From IMG/VR virus record IMGVR_UViG_3300044816_000209, positions 1 through 36,487 of that record: DNA of 36,487 nt, one strand, 5' to 3'. The stretch is from a virus. The position numbers were made by a program, and so were the translations under genes. The notes beneath the pieces were generated by a model, which saw only the letters and a list, made by a program, of their open reading frames with translations, made no database searches and was not told where the DNA came from. Positions within the stretch are counted from its first letter, which is position 1. Each line of letters begins with the position of its first letter. This document shows, one piece after another, positions 2,716-36,340 of this stretch.

Positions 2716-3213
2716 TTATCGGGCGAGCCAGATTGCGCAGATTTTCGCAGAGGGTTCGGAGCCGTCTTCGGCCCCCGCTCCGTTCCTTTCATCTGCGGAA
2801 ATCTGCGTCATCTGCGGATCAACTTTGAAAGTCTTCAGCGCGCCGATCGCCGTGCCGTTGCGCGAAGGCTGCGTCGGCTCGAAACGTCCGCGCCGATCCT
2901 GCGCCGCCTCGATGTCCGCGATCAGAATGTAAGCCGCCTTCTTGCGGCCGGGATCTTTGCGAATCGGGATGCGCAGCCGTTGGCACTCCGGGCGCACATA
3001 GCGCACCGCCTTGCAGCCCAGAATCGGCGCTGCTTCCTCGAGTGTTATGCGCCCGACCCGCTCTTTCACTTCTTGTTTCCTGACCTTGGCGATTTCTTCA
3101 GGAGCCAGATGCGGCGCGCAACCCTCTTTGATTTCCGCCCGAATGCCCGCGATCATCCAAGCCACGAATTCGGCGCGGGTAAACGTAAAGAGCGGCTCGG
3201 CGGGGGAAGACAT
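2716..3213 (-). CDS. Hypothetical DNA-binding-like protein, 165 aa
   Basis: Residues 1-130 include charged helices (EFVAWMIAGIRAEIKEG; EEIAKVRKQEVKERVG) and then ITLEEAAPILGCKAVRYVRPECQR, which has the spacing of a MerR/excisionase-type helix-turn-helix (about residues 56-80), followed by a possible wing and QDRRGRF. It may therefore be an excisionase-like or small regulatory protein; this is inference from the helix pattern only. The last about 35 residues are encoded by repeat A (2731-2822) and are probably a late addition. It starts just downstream of the 58-aa first gene of the early operon. Confidence 0.6.
   Translation of the reverse strand: MSSPAEPLFTFTRAEFVAWMIAGIRAEIKEGCAPHLAPEEIAKVRKQEVKERVGRITLEEAAPILGCKAVRYVRPECQRLRIPIRKDPGRKKAAYILIADIEAAQDRRGRFEPTQPSRNGTAIGALKTFKVDPQMTQISADERNGAGAEDGSEPSAKICAIWLAR
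2731..2822. repeat. Family A repeat, copy 1 (type i)
   Basis: Left arm GATTGCGCAGATTTTCGCAG, right arm ATCTGCGGAAATCTGCGTCA and onward, as an imperfect inverted pair around a GGTTCGGAGC...CTCCGTT centre. It encodes the C-terminus of the gene at 2716-3213. Confidence 0.85.
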
Positions 3214-3216
3214 CGC

Positions 3217-3393
3217 TCAGGCGGCTTTCTGCTTCGGCGCGCTGCGCACCTTGTTCAGTTCGCGGTTGATCTTCTTCAGCCACACTTCCGCGGCGGCTTT
3301 GCGCTCCGGATTGCTGCTCATCATCATCGCCTCCGCGGTATGCACCAGCAGCGTGCCCGTGGATTCGAGTTGGGTCCGTGTGTTCTTTGGCAT
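3217..3393 (-). CDS. First gene of the early operon, 58 aa
   Basis: ATG at 3393, TGA at 3217-3219. The product (MPKNTRTQLESTGTLLVHTA..., ending KVRSAPKQKAA) is basic and helical, with a likely amphipathic helix over residues 25-48 (NPERKAAAEVWLKKINREL). It is the first minus-strand gene after the divergent control region, the position where cro-like or other immediate early regulators often lie in temperate phages. No helix-turn-helix can be made out, so no function is assigned. No Shine-Dalgarno site is visible. Confidence 0.5.
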   Translation of the reverse strand: MPKNTRTQLESTGTLLVHTAEAMMMSSNPERKAAAEVWLKKINRELNKVRSAPKQKAA

Positions 3394-3489
3394 ATTTTAT
3401 GTTTTATCAAACTGGACGGAACGTGCAAGACAAAAATGATATTTCTTTCATATTGACGAAATGTTAAAGACCTGAGAACCCTCCTAGCC
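3394..3489. promoter_or_regulatory. Divergent control region between repressor and early genes
   Basis: This AT-rich 96-bp gap separates the minus-strand early genes from the plus-strand repressor, so it must hold both promoters and probably the repressor operators. Visible: TTGTCT and TGATAA with an 18-base spacer on the minus strand (weak match), TAAAAT directly before the ATG at 3393, and imperfect symmetry ATTTC (3441-3445) / GAAAT (3458-3462). No strong operator palindrome could be defined by eye. Confidence 0.5.
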
Positions 3490-4320
3490 ATGAGCGCATT
3501 CGGCACTTTTCTCGAAAACGAACTCGAACGTCAGAAAAAATCCGGTGGCGAGTTGGCCGCCGCCATGGGCATTGATGGCTCTTTGCTCAGCGGTTTCATC
3601 AACAACCGGCGCCGAAGCTGCAACGTCGAGACGCTCATGAAGATGGTCCGCGGGATCAGCCCGGATGAGAACGTCCAGGCCGCGCTTCTCGAAGCCTATT
3701 TCCGGGACCAATGCCTCGAGAAATACAAGCCATGGATCAAAGTCGATCCCGAGTCGCCCTACGCTGCCACCGTCATCCAAGAGACGCCCAGGAGCAGCAA
3801 CGGCGACGGCGCGGCCGGCGATCCCATTGGCCAGCTCGCCGCCACTCTGCGCGCGCTGCGCCTGCCCAATCCCGTCGTGCGCAGCTTCGCCGACATCGCC
3901 CAGTACCTTCCCGGCAAACACAAGTTCCGCGTCGTCCTCGAAGATCTCGGCAAATTCGCCCGCGAAGAACTCCAGCGCGCGCCCGGCATTCTCCCGCCGC
4001 TCGAAGCCTTCCTCATCACCGACGGCCGGGGTCGTCTGATTTATTGCGAACCGGCCTTCACCGAGATCTGCGGCTACCGGATGGAGGACCTGCGCGGGCG
4101 GCCGCTCAGCCTGCTCCAGGGCGAAGCCACCGAGCCCGCCGTGCGCGACGCTCTGCGCGCTTCCGTCCTCGCCCACCGGCCCTTCACCGGCATCATCACC
4201 AATTACCGCCGCGACGGTTCACCCTACCGCGTCCATCTCGAAACCCACCCCGTTTCCGATCCCGATGGCCAGTTCCTCCACTTCGAAGGCCGCGTCCGGC
4301 TGGAACGCGAATTGAAATAA
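3490..4320 (+). CDS. HTH-PAS (LOV-like) repressor candidate, 276 aa
   Basis: Residues about 5-55 form an XRE-type helix-turn-helix (KSGGELAAAMGIDGSLLSGF, then INNRRRSCNVETLMKM). Residues 60-165 are a helical linker. Residues about 168-275 are a PAS domain of the LOV subtype: FLITDGRGRLIYCEPAFTEI, GYRMEDLRG, GRPLSLLQG (203-211), NYRRDGSPY (238-246), FEGRVRLERE. In light-sensing LOV domains the loop is GRNCRFLQG; here Leu206 stands where the flavin-binding Cys would be. The second flavin-contacting Asn and the final Gln are also replaced (Val248, about Val269). The gene is divergent from the early operon and next to the integrase, the position of a lysogeny repressor. It may therefore sense a non-light ligand or simply dimerise. 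The usual LexA/CI peptidase domain is absent. Confidence 0.75.
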   Translation: MSAFGTFLENELERQKKSGGELAAAMGIDGSLLSGFINNRRRSCNVETLMKMVRGISPDENVQAALLEAYFRDQCLEKYKPWIKVDPESPYAATVIQETPRSSNGDGAAGDPIGQLAATLRALRLPNPVVRSFADIAQYLPGKHKFRVVLEDLGKFAREELQRAPGILPPLEAFLITDGRGRLIYCEPAFTEICGYRMEDLRGRPLSLLQGEATEPAVRDALRASVLAHRPFTGIITNYRRDGSPYRVHLETHPVSDPDGQFLHFEGRVRLERELK

Positions 4321-4416: not shown

Positions 4417-4677
4417 ATGAAGAACTTCTTTTTCACCATCGTGGCGATACTGCTCCTCGCGTTCATTGTTGGAATAACTCTTCCTATCTGGCAGGTCGGG
4501 CATCTCAAAAACGAAGTGATCAGAAATGCCGGGAACGCAACCTCGGCGGCGCAGGTGACGAAATATGAAGCCGACGCCTTTAAACGAAAATTCCTCGATT
4601 GTGACCGCGATCAAAAGGCGCTGGAAAGTGCGGCGGAATTAATGGATTCATTTTCTGGCGATCGATTCATGGCATGA
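4417..4677 (+). CDS. Small single-pass membrane protein, 86 aa
   Basis: The N-terminus MKNFFFTIVAILLLAFIVGI is a clear transmembrane segment (about residues 3-22), followed by a soluble helical part of about 60 residues that would face the periplasm or cytoplasm. The ATG at 4417 places the hydrophobic segment at the start; an upstream in-frame ATG at 4378 would add a basic, unlikely leader. Its stop overlaps the integrase ATG (ATGA at 4674-4677), so both are likely co-expressed in lysogeny. Lysogenic membrane proteins often act in superinfection exclusion, but that is only a positional guess. Confidence 0.6.
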   Translation: MKNFFFTIVAILLLAFIVGITLPIWQVGHLKNEVIRNAGNATSAAQVTKYEADAFKRKFLDCDRDQKALESAAELMDSFSGDRFMA

Positions 4678-6061: not shown

Positions 6062-6256
6062 ATCTTTCACGAATCTTTCACGCCCTGTTCCCCATGGAAC
6101 GCTCAACAGAGTGCCGGCGGCGGGACTCGAACCCGCCGCCGGCATTCGGTCTAAATGCTTTCGACGGGCTGTTTCAGTGTAGAAACGGAATCGGAGAGTC
6201 TTACCGTCTTTGCAGATTACCGTTTCAAACCGTCGATCAGCTCCGAATCTTTCACG
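6062..6256. other. attP: Putative attP with integrase arm-type sites
   Basis: Three direct copies of ATCTTTCACG lie at 6062-6071, 6073-6082 (11-bp period, one helical turn) and 6247-6256, on both sides of a GC-rich hairpin (6112-6144). This is the layout of arm-type sites flanking a core-type site. The integrase gene ends only 18 bp upstream. The right half also has three ACCGTYT-like repeats (around 6204-6234). No gene is visible in this 217-bp gap. Confidence 0.65.
6112..6144 (-). other. tRNA acceptor/T-arm-like minihelix (attP core candidate)
   Basis: Perfect 13-bp stem (TGCCGGCGGCGGG / CCCGCCGCCGGCA) with a 7-base loop. Read on the minus strand the loop is TTCGAGT, the signature of a tRNA T-loop, and stem plus loop have exactly the size of a 7-bp acceptor stacked on a 5-bp T-stem with an unpaired A as discriminator. 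No D-arm or 5' acceptor half is found at the right distance, so it is not a tRNA gene. It fits an attachment core copied from the 3' end of a host tRNA. Confidence 0.6.
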
Positions 6257-8118: not shown

Positions 8119-8150
8119 GTCCGGTGCGGATGCGGAGTCAACGGGGGAGA

Positions 8151-8218
8151 AGGTTTAAGGTTTCTGGTTTCACGGACGCGGCCGACGAGCGCCAACCAGA
8201 AACCAGAAACGTGAAACC
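8151..8218. repeat. Family B repeat, paired arms
   Basis: AGGTTTAAGGTTTCTGGTTT and its inverse CAGAAACCAGAAAC surround a GC-rich core (GACGCGGCCGACGAGCGCC). Begins a few bases after the stop of the gene ending at 8225. Confidence 0.85.
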
Positions 8219-12444: not shown

Positions 12445-12534
12445 GGTTTCTGGTTTAAGGTTTCTGGTTCAAGGTTGGCGGTCGTCGGGCGGGTTCCGTG
12501 AAACCAGAAACCAGAAACCAGAAACCTTGAACCG
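12445..12534. repeat. Family B repeat, paired arms
   Basis: GGTTTCTGGTTTAAGGTTTC arms on the left and CAGAAACCAGAAACC copies on the right, ending CCTTGAACC, around a GC-rich core. Starts about 11 bases after the stop of the gene ending at 12546. Confidence 0.88.
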
Positions 12535-13286: not shown

Positions 13287-13350
13287 TTGGGATTTGGTGA
13301 AAGTGAAAGGGCGGCGCTCGGGCCGCGCCGGCGAACTACCGCGGAGCTGT

Positions 13351-13453
13351 GATCCGCAGATTTCGCAGATGAGCGCAGATTTCCGGAAGGAGCTGAGGAA
13401 GGGTTTTTCTGCTGTGTTTCATCTGCGAAAATCTGCGCAATCTGCGGATAAAA
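13351..13453. repeat. Family A repeat, copy 2 (type ii)
   Basis: GATCCGCAGATTTCGCAGAT and its inverted partner ending AATCTGCGGATAAAAC, centre GGAAGGAGCTGAGGAAGG. The right end abuts the stop codon at 13455. Confidence 0.9.
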
Positions 13454-13454
13454 C

Positions 13455-13844
13455 TCAGGTGATCCCGATGCGCTGTTCGGCGTTGCCGCTGATCATCCGC
13501 AGATCCTCTTCGCCGTGGGAGCAGTCGAAGCTGGTCGTGTAGATGCCGCCGCTGTTCACGCCGTTCTTGTTCGTGCCGATGCCGAGATCGTTCGCGAGGG
13601 TGAGGACCACGCCGGGCGCGGCGATGGCGAGGCCGGTGCTGCCGTTGACGATCGCGCTCCACGAGTAGTTCGCGGAGAAGTCGTAGAAGACGTAGCCGAT
13701 CGTCGCGCTGGTCGTCATGTTGAAGACATCCTTCTTCTTGCTGGCCACGCCGCGATTGTGGCTCTGGATGATGGCCCCGGTCTCCGCGCTCAGCGCGAAG
13801 GTGCAGCCGGAGAGATTGATGAGGATGGGATCGCCGAGGGCCAT
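13455..13844 (-). CDS. Putative tail tube/structural protein, 129 aa
   Basis: Starts MALGDPILINLSGCTFALSA and continues as strand-rich, low-charge sequence (TSATIGYVFYDFSANYSWSA; GVVLTLANDLGIGTN). It is the first gene of the tail block read towards the chaperone and tape measure, where the major tail protein usually lies, but it is short for that role and I could not confirm a family. A TTGACA hexamer lies 16 bases before the ATG. Confidence 0.5.
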   Translation of the reverse strand: MALGDPILINLSGCTFALSAETGAIIQSHNRGVASKKKDVFNMTTSATIGYVFYDFSANYSWSAIVNGSTGLAIAAPGVVLTLANDLGIGTNKNGVNSGGIYTTSFDCSHGEEDLRMISGNAEQRIGIT

Positions 13845-13860
13845 ATCTCGGGCCGGGCGA

Positions 13861-13866
13861 TGTCAA
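13861..13866 (-). promoter_or_regulatory. YTGAC hexamer before start codon (example of ten)
   Basis: TTGACA lies 16 bases before the ATG at 13844 and 12 bases after a family B repeat. Equivalent hexamers lie at 6821-6826, 8136-8141, 14158-14163, 20022-20027, 20593-20598, 24764-24769, 28550-28555, 34039-34044 and 34553-34558, all 13-17 bases from a start codon. The spacing is too short for a promoter of these genes. Confidence 0.6.
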
Positions 13867-13878
13867 CACGCGGGGGGA

Positions 13879-13960
13879 GGTTTAAGGTTTCTGGTTTAAG
13901 GTTTAAGGTTGGCGCTCGCCGGCCGCGCCCGTGAAACCAGAAACCAGAAACCTTGAACCT
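13879..13960. repeat. Family B repeat, paired arms
   Basis: GGTTTAAGGTTTCTGGTTTA on the left, CAGAAACCAGAAACCTTGAA on the right, core GGCGCTCGCCGGCCGCGCCC. It fills the gap directly after the stop at 13961. Confidence 0.9.
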
Positions 13961-14143
13961 TCATTTCCCAAAGTGCGCGGAGGGCGGCGCGAGGCGCATG
14001 CTGCCGCCGAGCTGCTGGCCGTCCGGGCTGATGTATTGGAGCGAGTAGGTGCGGTCGTACTGCGCGAAGGGCGAACTCGCGCAGCCGCTGAAGAGCAGCG
14101 CGAGGAGGGCGAGGAGAAGAGCGAGGGCGAGGAGTGGCTTCAC
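13961..14143 (-). CDS. Small lipoprotein, o-spanin candidate, 60 aa
   Basis: GTG start at 14143. Residues 2-20 are a hydrophobic signal (KPLLALALLLALLALLFSG) ending in a lipobox LFSGC with Cys21, so the mature form would be a lipidated outer-membrane peptide of 40 residues (CASSPFAQYDRTYSLQ...). Size and architecture match Rz1-type outer spanins, and the preceding gene encodes a signal/coiled-coil protein. A TTGACG hexamer lies 14 bases before the start. The pair is 7 kb from the endolysin, which is unusual, so the role is an inference. Confidence 0.55.
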   Translation of the reverse strand: MKPLLALALLLALLALLFSGCASSPFAQYDRTYSLQYISPDGQQLGGSMRLAPPSAHFGK

Positions 14144-14169
14144 GCCACTGGCGCGCGCGTCAATGAGTT

Positions 14170-14271
14170 GATCCGCAGATTCCGCAGATTTGCGCAGATT
14201 TTCGGAACAGGCAGAGGGAACGTTTTTAGTACTAATCTTGATCTGCGCAAATCTGCGTAATCTGCGGATCA
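14170..14271. repeat. Family A repeat, copy 3 (type ii)
   Basis: GATCCGCAGATTCCGCAGAT and inverted partner CTGCGTAATCTGCGGATCA. The outermost TGA of the right arm, read on the minus strand, is the stop codon of the gene ending at 14269. Confidence 0.9.
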
Positions 14272-14685
14272 CTTCTTCGCAGCAGCTTCCGCCGCCTTGG
14301 CGGTGTCGAGCTTCGCGCGCTCTGCCTGAAGAGCGGAGATTTGCTTGTCGAGTTCGGCTTTCTTCGCGTCTTTCGCGGGCGTTTTGGCTTCCTCGATCTT
14401 TGCGAGCGCGTCGGCTTTCTTCGCATCGTCGGACGGCGCATCGAGCGCGGCTTTCGCGGCATCGGCAGCGGCTTGGTGCTTGGCGATCTCGGTGGCCTTC
14501 GCAGTCGCGTCGGCGTCGCGGGCAACGGTCAACGTCTGGAGCTGCGCGGCGCAATCACGCCGCACGTCGTTGAGCGCTTCATCGACGAGCAGCCGATCCT
14601 CTGGCGAGAGCTTGAGTCGGAAATCGTCGAAGGGTGTGGCGAAGGCGGCGGCGCTGAGCAGCAGGAGGATGACGAGAGTTTTCAT
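14269..14685 (-). CDS. Exported coiled-coil protein, i-spanin candidate, 138 aa
   Basis: Signal peptide or N-terminal anchor (MKTLVILLLLSAAAFA, likely cut before TPFDD), then about 120 residues of Ala/Lys/Glu/Asp-rich helix (ATEIAKHQAAADAAKAALD; AELDKQISALQAERAKLDT), strongly coiled-coil in character. This suits a periplasmic rod, like the inner-membrane spanin Rz, if the signal is uncleaved. It is followed by the small lipoprotein gene. An alternative is a fibre accessory protein, since it directly follows the fibre genes. Its stop codon lies inside a family A repeat. Confidence 0.55.
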   Translation of the reverse strand: MKTLVILLLLSAAAFATPFDDFRLKLSPEDRLLVDEALNDVRRDCAAQLQTLTVARDADATAKATEIAKHQAAADAAKAALDAPSDDAKKADALAKIEEAKTPAKDAKKAELDKQISALQAERAKLDTAKAAEAAAKK

Positions 14686-18330: not shown

Positions 18331-18845
18331 CACAAGTTCACGACGATGGTGTCCCCCTCACTTGTCACCCGGCCGTCGCCGAGATCGGTGACGAGCGCGT
18401 CGCCGCCGGGCGGGGTGGTGGTGCTTTCCCCGGCGACGGCGCGCACATCGAAGGTGTAGCCGTGCTCGCGGATGAGGCCGCTCTGCGTCGTCACCGTGCC
18501 CTGGCGCGTGGCCATCATGCAGGTGATGGCGGCGGTGTCGTTGGTGAACGCGGTGAGGAGATTGCTCGAATCGCAGAGCAGTTCGAGCGCTTCGCAGAGC
18601 GCGTCGAAAGCCGCTTCGAGCCCGCTGTCCAGCTTGGCATTCGTGCGGATGGTGATGGTCAGCCGCAGGATGCGGATCGGTGTCGTCTTCACCCGGCCCT
18701 GATCCTCGGCCTTAAGGATGATCTTCGGCGCGCCGGTGGTGAAAAGCGCGTCGCCGAAACGATGCCGCAACTCGATCGGCGAAAGCGTCGAGTCGGTCGC
18801 GAGGAACTGCGCCGCGGCGTACTGGAGGCGTTTCTCGATGGTCAT
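18330..18845 (-). CDS. Head-tail joining / tail terminator-like protein, 171 aa
   Basis: Compact alpha/beta pattern: KRLQYAAAQFLATD, then TPIRILRLTITIRTNAKLDSG (strand), FDALCEALELLCDSSNLL (helix), TQSGLIREHGYTFDVRAVAG (strand). This matches the pattern of tail terminator proteins of the gpU type, which cap the tail and bind the head. It lies after the head genes and directly before the fibre genes. Family assignment is by pattern and place only. Confidence 0.5.
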   Translation of the reverse strand: MTIEKRLQYAAAQFLATDSTLSPIELRHRFGDALFTTGAPKIILKAEDQGRVKTTPIRILRLTITIRTNAKLDSGLEAAFDALCEALELLCDSSNLLTAFTNDTAAITCMMATRQGTVTTQSGLIREHGYTFDVRAVAGESTTTPPGGDALVTDLGDGRVTSEGDTIVVNL

Positions 18846-18851
18846 CGGGAA

Positions 18852-18941
18852 AGGTTTAAGGTTTCTGGTTTAAGGTTTCTGGTCGGTGCCAGACGCGCGC
18901 GCTCCGTGAAACCAGAAACCAGAAACCAGAAACATTGAACC
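18852..18941. repeat. Family B repeat, paired arms
   Basis: AAGGTTTAAGGTTTCTGGTT twice on the left, three CAGAAAC units on the right, core TCGGTGCCAGACGCGCGCGC. Ends 6 bases before the start at 18845. Confidence 0.9.
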
Positions 18942-18951
18942 CGGCGCGTCT

Positions 18952-19266
18952 TCATGCCGCGTCCGGGTCTCCGAAGTAGATGATGAGCTGCGGCGCGGTG
19001 CTTTTGTTCGCGCCGTCGATGCTCGTGATTTGGAAGGTGCCGCTGTCGATCAGGTCGCCGATCTGTGGAAAGCTGGCGGCGAAGGCGCTCTTCGGCACGA
19101 CGAGCGAGCCGCTGGCGTTGCTCAGAAAACCGCCATCCACGAGCGAATGCGCGTCCGCGAGGTTCCGCCGGACACAGGCGTAATTGCTGCCCGCCCATTC
19201 GAAGCTGTCTTCATAGTCGGCACAGGCCGCGACAAGGTCGGCATCCAGTTCGGTGCGAAGACTCAT
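18952..19266 (-). CDS. Head-tail connector-like protein, 104 aa
   Basis: Short protein with an acidic helical start (RTELDADLVAACADYEDSF) and a beta-rich end (GSLVVPKSAFAASFPQIGDLIDSGTFQITSID). The second part resembles the barrel of FII-type (gpFII-like) head-tail connectors, which act at the portal-tail interface. The place, downstream of capsid genes and upstream of the tail terminator-like gene, agrees. A family A repeat ends 4 bases before its ATG. Confidence 0.5.
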   Translation of the reverse strand: MSLRTELDADLVAACADYEDSFEWAGSNYACVRRNLADAHSLVDGGFLSNASGSLVVPKSAFAASFPQIGDLIDSGTFQITSIDGANKSTAPQLIIYFGDPDAA

Positions 19267-19270
19267 GAGG

Positions 19271-19374
19271 TTATCCGCAGATTACGCAGATGGGCGCAGA
19301 TTTTCGGAAGTGGGAGAGGGCGAGGTTTGGCGCTGCTTTTCATCTGCGAAAATCTGCGCAATCTGCGGATAAAA
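19271..19374. repeat. Family A repeat, copy 4 (type ii)
   Basis: TTATCCGCAGATTACGCAGA and inverted AATCTGCGCAATCTGCGGAT; centre GGAAGTGGGAGAGGGCGAGG. Fills the gap between the genes ending at 19379 and starting at 19266. Confidence 0.92.
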
Positions 19375-19378
19375 GTTC

Positions 19379-20008
19379 CTAGCCTTTGGAATCCGCGAGG
19401 AGCGACAGAGCGACGATCGCGGGCGTGACCGCCGTGGCTGTGGCCACATCGACGACCGCGAGCGTGACGCGCACATCGATCCAGTCGCCGGGGTTCAGCG
19501 TCGTGGCGGTGAGGTTGAAATCCTTGTTCGCGAAGGCCGTCAGATTGATGCTCTGCGCGGCCGTGCTCACGAGGTCCGAGCCGGTGATGAGGCCATTCGT
19601 GACATCGACTTTGTAAGCCTCGAAATCGACCGTGGCGCTGCCGCTCGCGACGGTCGTGAACATGCCGGCGACGGCGCGCAGCGCGACCGTTTCGCCGCCC
19701 ACGTATTCGTGTGGGAGCTGCACTTGAAAACGCGCGTAACGCGTCGCGCTGATGTTCTTGCAATCCCCGCCGGTGACGAAGGGCACACCCGTGGCGAAGG
19801 CGCCGGCGGTGATGCCGAGGTCGTCAGTCCCGGCGGTCGTGAGCGAAGTCTGGAAAGCGTCCCAGATGCGCAGATCGGCGAGCGGGATGGCGTTGGCGCT
19901 GTTGGAATCCTGCGCGAGTTCGGAGCGGAGATAGGGCGTTTTCGTCCCGCGAAAATCCGTGTTCCCGTAAACGGTGAGGTCGCCCTCGAAAATGGTATTG
20001 TCGGCCAT
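19379..20008 (-). CDS. Virion structural protein candidate, 209 aa
   Basis: Beta-rich protein with a fibre-like N-terminus (EGDLTVYGNTDFRGTKTPYL resembles the opening of head fibre or collar proteins) and a jelly-roll-like middle (YARFQVQLPHEYVGGETVALRAVAGMF; SATVDFEAYKVD). It may be a head fibre or decoration protein; I recognise no exact family. TTGACA lies 13 bases before the ATG. Confidence 0.55.
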   Translation of the reverse strand: MADNTIFEGDLTVYGNTDFRGTKTPYLRSELAQDSNSANAIPLADLRIWDAFQTSLTTAGTDDLGITAGAFATGVPFVTGGDCKNISATRYARFQVQLPHEYVGGETVALRAVAGMFTTVASGSATVDFEAYKVDVTNGLITGSDLVSTAAQSINLTAFANKDFNLTATTLNPGDWIDVRVTLAVVDVATATAVTPAIVALSLLADSKG

Positions 20009-20038
20009 GCGCGGGCGGCAGTGTCAAAGAGGGAGGGA

Positions 20039-20112
20039 AGGTTTCTGGTTTCTGGTTTAAGGTTTCGGCAGGCGCTCGGCTCCGTGAAACCAGAAACCAG
20101 AAACGTGAAACT
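20039..20112. repeat. Family B repeat, paired arms
   Basis: AGGTTTCTGGTTTCTGGTTT and CAGAAACCAGAAACGTGAAA around GGCAGGCGCTCGGCTCC. Lies 5 bases after the stop of the gene ending at 20115. Confidence 0.9.
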
Positions 20113-20579: not shown

Positions 20580-20613
20580 GCTAGGGGCGCATTGTCAAAG
20601 CCGGGGAAGAAGC

Positions 20614-20716
20614 GATCCGCAGATTAACGCAGATGAGCGCAGATTTTCGGAAGAGGCAGAGGAAGGAGTTTGCCGCTGCTTTTCATCTGCGTAAATCTGC
20701 GCAATCTGCGGATAAA
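20614..20716. repeat. Family A repeat, copy 5 (type ii)
   Basis: GATCCGCAGATTAACGCAGA and inverted AATCTGCGCAATCTGCGGAT; centre GGAAGAGGCAGAGGAAGGAG. Begins 7 bases after the stop at 20724 in the direction of transcription. Confidence 0.92.
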
Positions 20717-20723
20717 TCCGGCC

Positions 20724-22066: not shown

Positions 22067-22150
22067 GGTTTCTGGTTTCTCGTTTAAGGTTTCAGGTGAA
22101 GCTCTCGTCGAGCGGCCTCCGTGAAACCAGAAACCAGAAACCTTGAACCT
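22067..22150. repeat. Family B repeat, paired arms
   Basis: GGTTTCTGGTTTCTCGTTTA and CAGAAACCAGAAACCTTGAA around a GAAGCTCTCGTCGAGCGGCC core. Lies 6 bases after the stop of the gene ending at 22156. Confidence 0.9.
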
Positions 22151-22155
22151 TGGTT

Positions 22156-22548
22156 TTACTGGTTCTGCTTCACGCCGATCGCTTCGATGGAAGTCGGGTA
22201 GGCGGGCGAGTTCGTGCCGGAGATGATGTGACGCGCGAAGAGGTAGCGCAGGGTCGCGCGGGTATCGACGGCCAGGGTGCCGCTCGCAGCGGTGTTGTTG
22301 GTCGTGGCGACGTTGCCGACGGCGAGGTTCGTCGCCTCGCTCGCGGTGTTGTTCGCGGCGTGCTGCAGGATGACGGTGATCGCGCCATCGTTGTCGCCCG
22401 CGGTCTTCACGCCGAGCGCGACGCGCACGGCGACGACGCCTTCATATTGCTGGAGATCGAAGCCGCCGGTCGCGGCGTTGTTCGTCGCGCGGCTGAGCGG
22501 CGCGCCGATGGTGGTGTGAGTCAGGGCGTTCTTGAGGTCGGTGGTCAT
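22156..22548 (-). CDS. Virion structural protein candidate, 130 aa
   Basis: Thr/Ala/Asn-rich, beta-patterned protein with few charges (YEGVVAVRVALGVKTAGDND; GAITVILQHAANNTASEATN). The place right after the capsid and the composition fit a minor head or decoration protein. Starts one codon after the previous stop. Family not recognised. Confidence 0.55.
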   Translation of the reverse strand: MTTDLKNALTHTTIGAPLSRATNNAATGGFDLQQYEGVVAVRVALGVKTAGDNDGAITVILQHAANNTASEATNLAVGNVATTNNTAASGTLAVDTRATLRYLFARHIISGTNSPAYPTSIEAIGVKQNQ

Positions 22549-24747: not shown

Positions 24748-24781
24748 GACGCTCGACGGCCTGAGTCAACAGAGAAGGAGG

Positions 24782-24884
24782 TTATCCGCAGATTGCGCAG
24801 ATTTTCGCAGAGGGGTTCGGAGCGGGCTTTCCCCGCTTTTTTCCCTTCCGTTCATCTGCGCAAATCTGCGTAATCTGCGGATCA
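24782..24884. repeat. Family A repeat, copy 6 (type i)
   Basis: TTATCCGCAGATTGCGCAGA and inverted AATCTGCGTAATCTGCGGAT; centre GGTTCGGAGCGGGCTTTCCC. Confidence 0.92.
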
Positions 24885-24887
24885 ACG

Positions 24888-24956
24888 ATGACTGATTACG
24901 AGATGAAGACCGAACTCAGCGCGCTCGTCGAAAAGCAAGGCGGCCAGCTCTTTTAA
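24888..24956 (+). CDS. 22-aa plus-strand ORF, doubtful
   Basis: MTDYEMKTELSALVEKQ... ending at TAA 24954-24956. The sequence looks protein-like, and a small hairpin (GACC/GGTC) with GGTTTTT follows, but it runs against the operon. The rest of the 356-bp gap between portal and capsid genes (24957-25103) shows nothing I can name. Confidence 0.15.
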   Translation: MTDYEMKTELSALVEKQGGQLF

Positions 24957-29772: not shown

Positions 29773-30799
29773 ACGCCGCCGCGGTGGTCTGCGCCTGGCG
29801 GCATTTGAGGCGCGTGTTTTCGCCGCGCATCGCGGGGGCTTGCAGGCCGCTGAAGGTGTCGCGGAATTCGCCGACGAGTTTGTTGATCGCCTGGCGCGTG
29901 GCGTTGGTCGGTTCGCCGAGCACGGTGTTCGTCGCGGCGTCGAGCAAATCCGGGCGGAGGACGTAGCCGATGACGTTGAGCCGCACGCCGAGCGCGCTGA
30001 AGGTCGAAGCCTGGCGGCACCAATCGAAGACGCGGCCGTAAATGATGCCGAGCTGGGCAGCATTTTCGATGAGCAGGAATTGCAGCTCGCCGAGCAGGCC
30101 GGCGGGGATCGGGCCGGCGGCGAGATCGGGCCGGCAATAGCCGATGAGCGCGGCCATGCGCTGGCCTTTTTTGACGAGATGCCCGGCTTTGAATGCCCAG
30201 ACCAGCGCGCGGGCGAAGGCTTCGTGGGCGTCGCGGATTTCCTCCGAGCCAAGGCAGAGGTTATCCGCAGATTGCGCCGATTTTCGCAGAGGTTCAGAAG
30301 CGTCGTCTCCGATCCCCTTCCCATCCGTAAATCTGCGCTCATCTGCGAAATCTGCGGATAAACCCTCTTCCCGTCGCAGGATGGGCCGTCCATTGTGCCG
30401 CCCGCATTCCGCGCCGTGGGGAACCGCATGATCTTCGCGAAAATCGAGATCGGGCTCGGCGGCGCCGGCCGGGCGGGAACGATCGGTGAGCGGGCGATCG
30501 ATGCCCTTGGCGCGGGCGAATTCCTGCTCCGCCGCGGTGAGCGCGTTGAACCAATCGCGATAGGTTCGCGTCCACGATTTGCGCGTGGCGATCTCACGGG
30601 CGTCGGCTTGGGATCGGTCGAGAAACTCGGCCTTCTTTTGCTTTTTGGAACGACCACCGAACGCGCCTTTCGCTTCGCCATTGTGTTTGCCGCTGCCGCC
30701 GATGCCTTGGTAACGATCCCGCGGAATTTCTACCGCGTGGAAATTGGAACCCATGCCCATAGAGGCGGCGGCAGCGAGGATCTGGAGAACGCTTCTCAT
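29771..30799 (-). CDS. Hypothetical protein interrupted in frame by repeat A, 342 aa
   Basis: Residues 1-145 (GRSKKQKKAEFLDRSQADAR; RTYRDWFNALTAAEQEFARA) and 182-342 (AFARALVWAFKAGHLVKKGQ; LNVIGYVLRPDLLDAATNTV) are globular and seem to form one protein. Residues 146-181 (GLSADFADERRFTDGKG... SAQSADNL) are the in-frame translation of a full family A repeat. No family recognised; the gene lies among the small genes between terminase and portal. Met15 and Met17 are alternative starts. Confidence 0.6.
   Translation of the reverse strand: MRSVLQILAAAASMGMGSNFHAVEIPRDRYQGIGGSGKHNGEAKGAFGGRSKKQKKAEFLDRSQADAREIATRKSWTRTYRDWFNALTAAEQEFARAKGIDRPLTDRSRPAGAAEPDLDFREDHAVPHGAECGRHNGRPILRREEGLSADFADERRFTDGKGIGDDASEPLRKSAQSADNLCLGSEEIRDAHEAFARALVWAFKAGHLVKKGQRMAALIGYCRPDLAAGPIPAGLLGELQFLLIENAAQLGIIYGRVFDWCRQASTFSALGVRLNVIGYVLRPDLLDAATNTVLGEPTNATRQAINKLVGEFRDTFSGLQAPAMRGENTRLKCRQAQTTAAA
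30261..30362. repeat. Family A repeat, copy 7 (type i), inside a gene
   Basis: TTATCCGCAGATTGCGCCGA and inverted ATCTGCGAAATCTGCGGATA, with about 40 bp between the arms. The whole element is 102 bp (34 codons) and keeps the reading frame of 29771-30799. Confidence 0.9.
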
Positions 30800-30834: not shown

Positions 30835-31260
30835 CTACGCCGGAAGTGTTCCAAAATGTTCCAAAGAGAAGAGGCGATCCGCAGATTTCGCAGATTTTCG
30901 CAGAGGGTTCGGAACCTCGTTTCCGAGCCCATTCCCCTCCGATAATCTGCGCTCATCTGCGAAATCTCCGGATAAACCCGGTGGCGGATGCACGGGCGGG
31001 GCGCCGCGGCTCACGAGCGCGGCTTCGAGCAGGGCTTCGCGCTCGGGTTTGCTGTGCTTGAGGAATTCGCGCACCGGAATGCCGAGCGTCTTCGCGGCGT
31101 CGCGCTGCTCGAGCCACCAGAGGAGTTGAAACTCATCGACCCGGCCACCGACGAACGGGGCGCCTTCGAGCTCCCACCGCCAGACGGTGGTGCGGCCACG
31201 CTTGAAGTGGAAACAGACTTCTTTCCGGGTGAGTGTCGGACCCGACGGGGGGGGCTTCAC
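30835..31260 (-). CDS. HTH protein with repeat-encoded tail, 141 aa
   Basis: GTG start. Residues 10-35 (TRKEVCFHFKRGRTTVWRWE) have the pattern of a winged helix-turn-helix as in Nu1/excisionase-type DNA-binding proteins, followed by LLWWLEQRDAAKTLGIPVRE and a charged helix. A second terminase-associated DNA-binding role is possible. Residues 95-129 are encoded by family A copy 8, and the end (SLEHFGTLPA) lies beyond it, so the repeat again is inside the frame. Confidence 0.55.
   Translation of the reverse strand: MKPPPSGPTLTRKEVCFHFKRGRTTVWRWELEGAPFVGGRVDEFQLLWWLEQRDAAKTLGIPVREFLKHSKPEREALLEAALVSRGAPPVHPPPGLSGDFADERRLSEGNGLGNEVPNPLRKSAKSADRLFSLEHFGTLPA
30875..30976. repeat. Family A repeat, copy 8 (type i), inside a gene
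   Basis: GATCCGCAGATTTCGCAGAT and inverted ATCTGCGAAATCTCCGGATA; centre GGTTCGGAACCTCGTTTCCG. In frame in the 3' part of 30835-31260. Confidence 0.88.
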
Positions 31261-31445
31261 TTGCTGGGAAAGGAAACACGCATTGCGCGCAAAAGTAGAG
31301 CAAATTATGACCCACCGGCGACCGCGAGGAGGCCGGGGCGCGGCGCAGGGGCTATCGCCTCACATGGAGCGACGCGTGCGACGGCACCCCGAGCCTGCTC
31401 GGAGTTCGGTGACCACGCGCGCAGCGCGAGTCAATGGAACCGGAT

Positions 31446-31544
31446 TTATCCGCAGATTGCGCAGATTTTCGCAGAGGTTCGGAGCTTCAATTCCAAGCCC
31501 TTTCCCTTCCGTTAATCTGCGAAAATCTGCGTAATCTGCGGATC
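31446..31544. repeat. Family A repeat, copy 9 (type i)
   Basis: TTATCCGCAGATTGCGCAGA and inverted AATCTGCGTAATCTGCGGAT, about 28 bp per arm with one or two mismatches. Its end supplies the TGA stop of the gene ending at 31543. The rest of the gap 31261-31445 (185 bp) shows no gene. Confidence 0.92.
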
Positions 31545-31800
31545 ACTTCTCCTGAAAATGAGGTGGGCGCGGATCGCCGATCTGGAGCTGGCCGACGATC
31601 TCGCGGGAGAGTTCGCGGCCGGCGGCATCGAGGACGATGACGAGCCCGCCTTCCACGCGGCAATGCCACCTCGCGTATTCCACGGCCTGCGCGGAAACGA
31701 GGTACCAGAGCGCATGCGGAAGAGTCGGCCCGGTGAGCGTAAAGCCATCGCCCGCGGAACGCGGGGAAACGAGGTAAGGCGGCGGGTCGTGCTCAGGCAC
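31543..31800 (-). CDS. Hypothetical protein, 85 aa
   Basis: Product reads PEHDPPPYLVSPRSAGDG, then LWYLVSAQAVEYARWHCRVE and LVIVLDAAGRELSREIVGQL: a small alpha/beta protein without a family I can name. The GTG at 31800 is preferred; a TTG at 31836 would start inside a repeat arm. It follows the terminase gene. The stop codon TGA is the terminal TGA of repeat A copy 9. Confidence 0.5.
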   Translation of the reverse strand: MPEHDPPPYLVSPRSAGDGFTLTGPTLPHALWYLVSAQAVEYARWHCRVEGGLVIVLDAAGRELSREIVGQLQIGDPRPPHFQEK

Positions 31801-34941: not shown

Positions 34942-35783
34942 GCTCTTTGCTTCTCCGATCCGCCGTTGCGCTTGAACTCCCAAACGAACGCCGCGCCGAT
35001 GTTCTCCACCTTCGCGAACTCCGCCTCCGTCTTCGCCTTCAGCGCGCTCACCGCATGCGCGAACGCTCGACGCTGGCCCCTCAGCATGCACTGAAAGCGC
35101 GCGCCTCTCTCCACCAGCTCTTTCACACCCGTGTTGCGGCGTCTCATGAGCTTCACGAAATCCTGCCACACCTCATCATCACTCGAGTCTTCGTCCCGCG
35201 CGAAGCACCCCGACTCCCCACCGCTCGACAGAGCACGACTCCCCGAGTCATCGCCTCCAGGCGCTCTCGCCTTGGATTCGGATTCTTGATTCTCTTCTAT
35301 TCGGATTCGGCTTTTCGGCGGCGGCAAAACAGCCATCCCTCCATCAAGCTTGAGCGAGCCTTGCTCAGGCGGATCACTCGCGCTCGGCGGACTCTCCGCC
35401 TTCGCATATTTTTTCGTCAGCGGCACATGCTGCCAAGGCTCCACAATCTTCAGCCACTCCTTGCCAGACGCAGAATGCGGCATCAGGAAGCCACGCGAGT
35501 GCAACACTTGCAGCGCAGGGTCTATCCGTTGCGGGGTCCACGTCCGAAGAAGGAAGTCAGTCTTCCCGATTGCCAGCTTCACAGCATGCGTTGCGTCTCC
35601 GTTTTCGATCTCAAAAAAATAGTTAGGCTTCGCGCGATGCGATTCGGCCAGCACGATGTGAAAGACAAAGAACGCATCAGCCACAAGCGCCGGTCTCAGT
35701 TCGGGCAGGTCTTTACGGGTCAGAGCTGCATAAAGCTTCATGGGCACATCGCACGGCAGGCAATAGAAAGGCCGCTCACTCAT
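34938..35783 (-). CDS. Putative replication or regulatory protein, 281 aa
   Basis: Residues 1-115 (MKLYAALTRKDLPELRPALV; FFVFHIVLAESHRAKPNYFF; TWTPQRIDPALQVLHSRGFL) have the pattern of a winged-helix domain like those at the start of phage replication initiators. Residues 120-210 are low-complexity, Ser/Asp/Glu-rich and probably disordered. Residues 210-281 form a basic helical end (DFVKLMRRRNTGVKELVERG). It could start replication, as no helicase or primase is visible in the window, but this is inference. Coupled to both neighbours by ATGA. Confidence 0.5.
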   Translation of the reverse strand: MSERPFYCLPCDVPMKLYAALTRKDLPELRPALVADAFFVFHIVLAESHRAKPNYFFEIENGDATHAVKLAIGKTDFLLRTWTPQRIDPALQVLHSRGFLMPHSASGKEWLKIVEPWQHVPLTKKYAKAESPPSASDPPEQGSLKLDGGMAVLPPPKSRIRIEENQESESKARAPGGDDSGSRALSSGGESGCFARDEDSSDDEVWQDFVKLMRRRNTGVKELVERGARFQCMLRGQRRAFAHAVSALKAKTEAEFAKVENIGAAFVWEFKRNGGSEKQRA

Positions 35784-36340
35784 GAATTCGCGCCCTTCAT
35801 CTCCTCGTCGATCGACTCCAGAACGTACGGCGGCACATTGTAGCCAAGCGCGATCAATCCGATCACACGCTGCCGAAACGACTCCAAATCGGGATCATTA
35901 AATCTCGCGCCAGCGTGCGGCAGATTGATCGGCTCACGATCAGCCGTTTTTAGAAAATCCATCTGCGCTTTGTGGGCGCCAATCCAAAGATTCGGGCCGG
36001 CATCGATGCTCACGAGTTTCGGAACAACACCCACCACGCGCCGCGGTTCGCGCGGGAGCTGCGGCAGATCGAGATTCCCCGGATCGACTTCGAGCACGTG
36101 CTTGAACGCCCAAACGATCGCGCAAAGCATCTGCCGCCGCGACGAAATGCTGTAACGCTCGCGCTCCAGGCGATGCATCCACGCACTGAGATCGGCGCCG
36201 CGCCACTGCGCGGCCGGGCGTCCGACGAAGCGATGAAAGGCCATGAGATGCGCCCAATACTGCCGGCGGGAATTGCGGCTCAAAGGCGCCCGGCCAGCAC
36301 TTGCCTGCTGCTCAAACTTCGCGCGAATCCCCGTCTTCAT
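35780..36340 (-). CDS. Orphan recombinase core-binding domain protein, 186 aa
   Basis: Residues 18-105 match the SAM-like N-terminal domain of tyrosine recombinases, close to the integron-integrase type: SRNSRRQYWAHLMAFHRFVG, then LSAWMHRLERERYSISSRRQ, MLCAIVWAFKHVLEVDPGNL, DLPQLPREPR. In a recombinase a 170-180-residue catalytic domain with the R-H-R-Y residues would follow, but here only about 80 unrelated residues follow (INLPHAGARFNDPDLESFRQ; RQRVIGLIALGYNVPPYVLE) and no catalytic Arg or Tyr motif is present. It probably binds DNA without cutting, perhaps as a regulator or origin-binding factor. Coupled by ATGA to both neighbours. Confidence 0.6.
   Translation of the reverse strand: MKTGIRAKFEQQASAGRAPLSRNSRRQYWAHLMAFHRFVGRPAAQWRGADLSAWMHRLERERYSISSRRQMLCAIVWAFKHVLEVDPGNLDLPQLPREPRRVVGVVPKLVSIDAGPNLWIGAHKAQMDFLKTADREPINLPHAGARFNDPDLESFRQRVIGLIALGYNVPPYVLESIDEEMKGANS

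Follow-up and report, generated by a model that had tools for sequence, protein, structure and literature searches.

VqmA has been described in the Vibrio phage VP882 and its relatives (PMC8284805, PMC12802170), and the VqmA DNA-binding domain without its PAS domain is monomeric and inactive (PMC8284805), which gives a precedent for PAS-mediated dimerisation of a DNA-binding protein that a phage encodes. For LOV domains, a filter for natural cysteine-less forms (LOV*) requires at least nine of the ten other conserved LOV residues, of which nine positions are named, in YtvA numbering, as G59, N61, R63, F64, L65, Q66, N94, N104, and Q123 (Yee et al. 2015, PMC4682037). Within the PAS cluster that includes the LOV domains, the cysteine is present in just 57%, which makes its absence alone unremarkable, and FAD-binding PAS domains are marked by a tryptophan in the F-alpha helix (PMC10468136). 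Phage regulation in Verrucomicrobiota, the presumed host phylum of the phage described here, is little studied, and a search of the open literature turned up no phage repressor described as a Cro/C1-PAS fusion.

The window analyzed here is the whole 36.5-kb viral record (36,487 nucleotides), and the features considered are collected in Table 1. The open-reading frame of interest, designated P0001, is a genuine gene with a codon-position GC content (0.67/0.45/0.79) like that of the integrase, portal, and terminase genes of the same record. Its C-terminal part matched the Pfam models PAS_9 (E 3.8e-11, 43.6 bits against a curated cut-off of 27) and PAS (41.7 bits against a cut-off of 22.6), and by this homology, which is far above chance, it is assigned as a clear PAS domain. 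The N-terminal region is tentatively assigned as a Cro/C1-type HTH of putative function, with scores below the Pfam cut-offs. When P0001 was searched by itself, HTH_3 gave an E-value of 0.01, and in the record translated in all six frames P0001 was the sole HTH_3 match (E 4.6e-4); the scores of 16.1–16.3 bits lie below the curated cut-off of 23. The phrog_1728 family, annotated as "transcriptional regulator", covers residues 3–72 (E 2.7e-4), and the NCBIfam AimR HTH model matched with an E-value of 1.5e-4. Identity to chromosomal HTH proteins was about 35%, and the weak matches from a search of 273 genomes with the HTH alone were to one HigA-like and one HTH-nuclease-like chromosomal protein. 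Both structure models placed five HTH helices in the right order with low confidence (pLDDT ~55), and a fold search with these models returned no meaningful match. The original prediction of an HTH and a PAS domain in one protein is supported by these searches, with a clear PAS and an HTH that is weak by sequence.

Table 1 Positions of the regulator locus and of other features in the window
Feature	Position	Strand	Remarks
165-aa ORF, second leftward early gene	2716-3213	-	without Pfam or PHROG match
58-aa ORF, divergent from regulator, presumed first leftward early gene	3217-3393	-	family: none found
Divergent intergenic region, presumed operator/promoters	3394-3489 (96 bp)	.	35% GC vs 62% for the window
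HTH-PAS regulator P0001	3490-4320	+	276 aa; HTH-like 1-82, linker helices 112-163, PAS 172-269
Small protein, hydrophobic N-terminus	4417-4677	+	stop overlaps integrase ORF start (ATGA)
Tyrosine integrase, 456 aa	4674-6044	+	42% identical to the L058 integrase
attP-like element, tRNA T-arm and acceptor 3' end, GCGGGTTCGAGTCCCGCCGCCGGCA	6112-6143	-	adjoins integrase 3' end
Portal protein, 914 aa	25104-27848		
186-aa ORF	35780-36340		
ATCTGCG..CAATCTGCGGAT repeat	2506-2828, 13344-14278, 19265-19379, 20608-20722, 24778-24891, 30255-30368, 30869-30982, 31440-31552		
GGTTTAAGGTTTCTGG / CCAGAAACCAGAAACC repeats	8129-8218, 12445-12533, 13856-13967, 18830-18941, 20017-20111, 22068-22156		

P0001 stands where a lysogeny repressor would be expected, as had been predicted: it is divergent from the early operon and upstream of the integrase, and the ATGA overlap between the two genes that follow it suggests that the regulator, the small protein, and the integrase form a single operon. 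No match to the S24 peptidase domain (PF00717), which characterizes S24/LexA-type CI repressors and their autocleavage, was found in P0001 or elsewhere in the record. The intergenic region lies inside positions 3356–3528, the sole stretch of at most 40% GC in the record, and within it we found neither palindromes beyond chance (23 of 100 shuffles were as good) nor a sigma-70 match. Judged by its position and by this base composition, it is plausible that P0001 is the lysogeny repressor; the record is classed as linear, and a further regulator could be missing from it.

The integrase, together with an attP that resembles a tRNA end, indicates a temperate phage, and since phage genes flank attP on both sides, with the lysis genes to the right, the contig represents the excised or virion form. 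The 25-base attP core is shared by 75 viral contigs, in which it most frequently takes the form of a partial tRNA-Leu-like end, and the same core lies directly downstream of the 42%-identical integrase in L058. That contig, the same as L160 and the nearest phage found, has what appear by eye to be divergent ribbon-helix-helix-like ORFs at the HTH-PAS position. Elsewhere in the window, the C-terminal part of the portal protein matched the polyvalent-protein kinase domain PF18762 with an E-value of 4e-6, just above the cut-off, and for the 186-aa ORF near the right end, the match to tyrosine integrases is limited to their N-terminal SAM-like domain, with phrog_13573 matching at the C-terminus of the ORF. 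Two families of dispersed repeats were also observed, one of about ten copies (ATCTGCG..CAATCTGCGGAT) that lie between phage genes and are frequently paired in inverted orientation, and the other consisting of GGTTTAAGGTTTCTGG / CCAGAAACCAGAAACC units that occupy spaces between the structural genes. An exact 30-mer of the first repeat was found in metagenome-assembled genomes labelled Verrucomicrobia, Lentisphaerae, Planctomycetota/Phycisphaerae, Caldilineaceae, and others, and the verrucomicrobial relatives of the integrase are at most 38% identical to it. Integrase relatives and shared intergenic repeats together point to a host that is probably an uncultured verrucomicrobial bacterium. No match to P0001 was present among the listed stretches at these integrase relatives, where the listed upstream ORFs looked chromosomal.

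Across 387 Verrucomicrobiota genomes, the top matches to P0001 were confined to its PAS domain, the closest short ones being proteins of about 190–200 aa that lack an HTH (46% and 42% identity), and no HTH-PAS protein was present in 273 genomes of one verrucomicrobial order. There were no relatives in 50,697 phage records, no homologue of the full protein or of either half in viral contigs and genome contigs, and no plasmid match extends over more than 71% of the query. When viral contigs were searched with a profile, the 13 PAS loci obtained encoded LOV histidine kinases, multi-PAS, or GGDEF proteins and none of them HTH-PAS; the IMG/VR contigs concerned (L135-L147), two of which exceed 400 kb, are possibly cellular DNA. 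Full-length homologues were thus absent from the collections sampled, the PAS-only relatives are chromosomal-type proteins, and the phage linkage of the HTH-PAS architecture is a single case, P0001. PAS domains as such are not unique among phages, since the viral-protein fold library that was searched contains PAS-domain phage proteins.

Taken together, we regard P0001 as a Cro/C1-type phage regulator and, most likely, a lysogeny repressor dimerised by its PAS domain and possibly responsive to a ligand, a reading that we hold with slightly more confidence than doubt. In the mechanism that we infer, which extends to the function of the HTH, repression rather than activation, the operator, dimerisation, and any ligand, the PAS domain would stand where a repressor normally has its C-terminal domain for oligomerisation or autocleavage. 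P0001 would dimerise through this domain and the helix preceding it, and the dimer would bind the AT-rich 96-bp region, holding off the leftward early operon and keeping on its own rightward operon of regulator, small membrane protein, and integrase. The PAS domain may also bind a small ligand, with DNA binding becoming looser or tighter as a result.

How much the PAS domain does beyond dimerisation divides this reading further. It could be a dimerisation module without any signal, which is possible although we lean against it: VqmA needs its PAS domain to dimerise (PMC8284805), and the PAS of EAG channels, which is derived from LOV and matches the model of P0001 at Z 17.9, has a changed pocket (PMC10468136), but sequence alone cannot separate such a role from sensing. 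Even then, a host signalling domain would have been recruited into a phage switch. We are more doubtful that the repressor is itself a ligand- or redox-gated receptor, with a PAS domain taken from the host, and that prophage induction would accordingly be set by a metabolite or the redox state of the host in place of DNA damage. Direct ligand sensing by the repressor would make it a one-protein alternative to two other arrangements, RecA-driven induction and the two-step circuit of VqmA and Qtip.

The main rival to a PAS-dimerised repressor is a module of the VqmA/Qtip or TF-smORF kind, in which P0001 would be a ligand-responsive activator of the 58-aa ORF, whose product would inactivate a separate repressor. 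In VP882, VqmA, a PAS-HTH protein, and the antirepressor gene qtip have a single intergenic promoter region in common (PMC8284805), other prophages contain counter-oriented TF-smORF modules (PMC10432266), and the 58-aa ORF stands divergently beside P0001. However, a second HTH_3 protein or an S24 repressor was not found in the record, the 58-aa ORF seems to open an operon, another leftward gene following within a few bases, and P0001 differs from VqmA in HTH type and in domain order, its sole HTH-like region being N-terminal where the VqmA family has PAS and then HTH. We consider such a module unlikely.

A further alternative is that the PAS domain binds flavin and acts as a redox or light sensor, as in Cys-less LOV* or NifL-type domains. 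This would accord with the nearest solved-structure sequences, which are LOV domains (9vf8, E 2.3e-15; EL222, E 2.4e-13), with NifL as the top NCBIfam match (E 3e-13; LOV kinase and YtvA models score alike), with the retention of Q210, R223, and N238, and with the finding that Cys-less LOVs can still signal through flavin reduction (PMC4682037). The original prediction described a LOV-like domain without its cysteine but with the rest of the pattern kept. As to the cysteine it was right, because the GRPLSLLQG loop begins at residue 203 and the alignment puts Leu206 in the cysteine column, leaving P0001 without the adduct-forming residue of LOV photoreceptors. The remainder of the claim did not stand. 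At the YtvA filter positions, P0001 reads G, P, S, L, L, Q, N, V and then no Q, so that only four of the nine named pocket residues remain (G203, L209, Q210, and N238), compared to the nine of ten or more that the published LOV* filter requires, and the equivalents of N61, R63, F64, N104, and Q123 are lost besides the cysteine. When 62 PAS/LOV sequences were aligned and counted at eight alignable positions (the ninth, the active-site glutamine, was unaligned in other rows), Cys-bearing LOVs kept five to eight, Cys-less PAS domains mostly four, and P0001 four. The pocket is thus mostly gone, and a LOV domain that has lost its cysteine alone was rejected on this count; Verrucomicrobiota commonly have such Cys-less PAS domains.

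Arg223 matches the F-alpha arginine of LOVs and is kept, but it occupies the column in which 10 of the 62 rows have tryptophan, the mark of FAD-binding PAS domains (PMC10468136) such as the NifL type. The predicted F-alpha helix (residues 216–227, PAVRDALRASVL) contains no histidine, the mark of haem-binding PAS domains of the FixL/DosP type, and His229 stands after it. By its pocket residues, the PAS domain of P0001 is no photoreceptor, the emphasis on a LOV domain without cysteine was mostly an over-reading, and the light-sensor angle should be dropped; a flavin-binding redox or light sensor appears quite improbable.

A distant kinship with LOV domains is nonetheless likely, since the closest solved structures are still LOV domains. 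In the AlphaFold2 model of P0001, the PAS blocks have a pLDDT of 88–95, and its fold matches were LOV and EAG PAS domains at Z 17.5–19.3 (LOV ~19, LOV-derived EAG channel PAS 17.9), a similarity that is partly built in, as the input alignment consisted of LOV-type proteins. A tree placed P0001 weakly with the Cys-less group, on a long branch. The test of a grouping with the Cys-bearing LOVs shifted with the set of rows held together, from rejection at a p-AU of 0.002 when three Cys-bearing rows were left out to 0.073 with two of them added, and with all 16 rows the grouping was not rejected (p-AU 0.395), so that a firm phylogenetic placement was discarded. Lastly, a role as a cargo regulator of host genes rather than as a lysogeny switch, although in keeping with PAS relatives that are host-type proteins, is very unlikely for a gene that adjoins the integrase and a divergent early operon in a record where other repressor candidates were not found.

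Compared to the known systems, the verrucomicrobial short PAS proteins (L103, L105, L110, L112, L114, and L117) are the closest to P0001 in the PAS domain itself, with 42–46% identity for the top two, the same pocket signature, and a similar RERKL-like C-terminal end, but they lack an HTH, have another N-terminal region, carry a loop one residue longer (GRKPGxLLQG), and are not in phages. The LOV-HTH photoreceptor EL222, which matched with 53 bits, likewise joins a PAS/LOV domain to an HTH in a DNA-binding protein; it is bacterial, has a true LOV domain with cysteine and pocket, and places the LOV first and the HTH after it. Cys-less LOV* domains such as BAT-LOV* share the LOV-like fold without the adduct-forming cysteine, whereas domains of that type keep at least nine of the ten other LOV residues and P0001 keeps four of nine. 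VqmA of Vibrio phage VP882 is the nearest precedent, a phage PAS and HTH protein at the lysis-lysogeny decision with a small divergent ORF beside its gene, as is the case for P0001. VqmA has an N-terminal PAS and a C-terminal HTH, in contrast to the N-terminal Cro/C1-like HTH and C-terminal PAS of P0001, and it is a DPO-binding activator of qtip, with repression carried out by a separate cI, whereas a separate repressor was not found in the record of P0001. The lambda-type CI repressor resembles P0001 in its N-terminal Cro/C1-type HTH, a tentative assignment in P0001, and in the repressor-like position of its gene, and the two differ in the C-terminal domain, which is an S24 peptidase in CI and a PAS domain in P0001.
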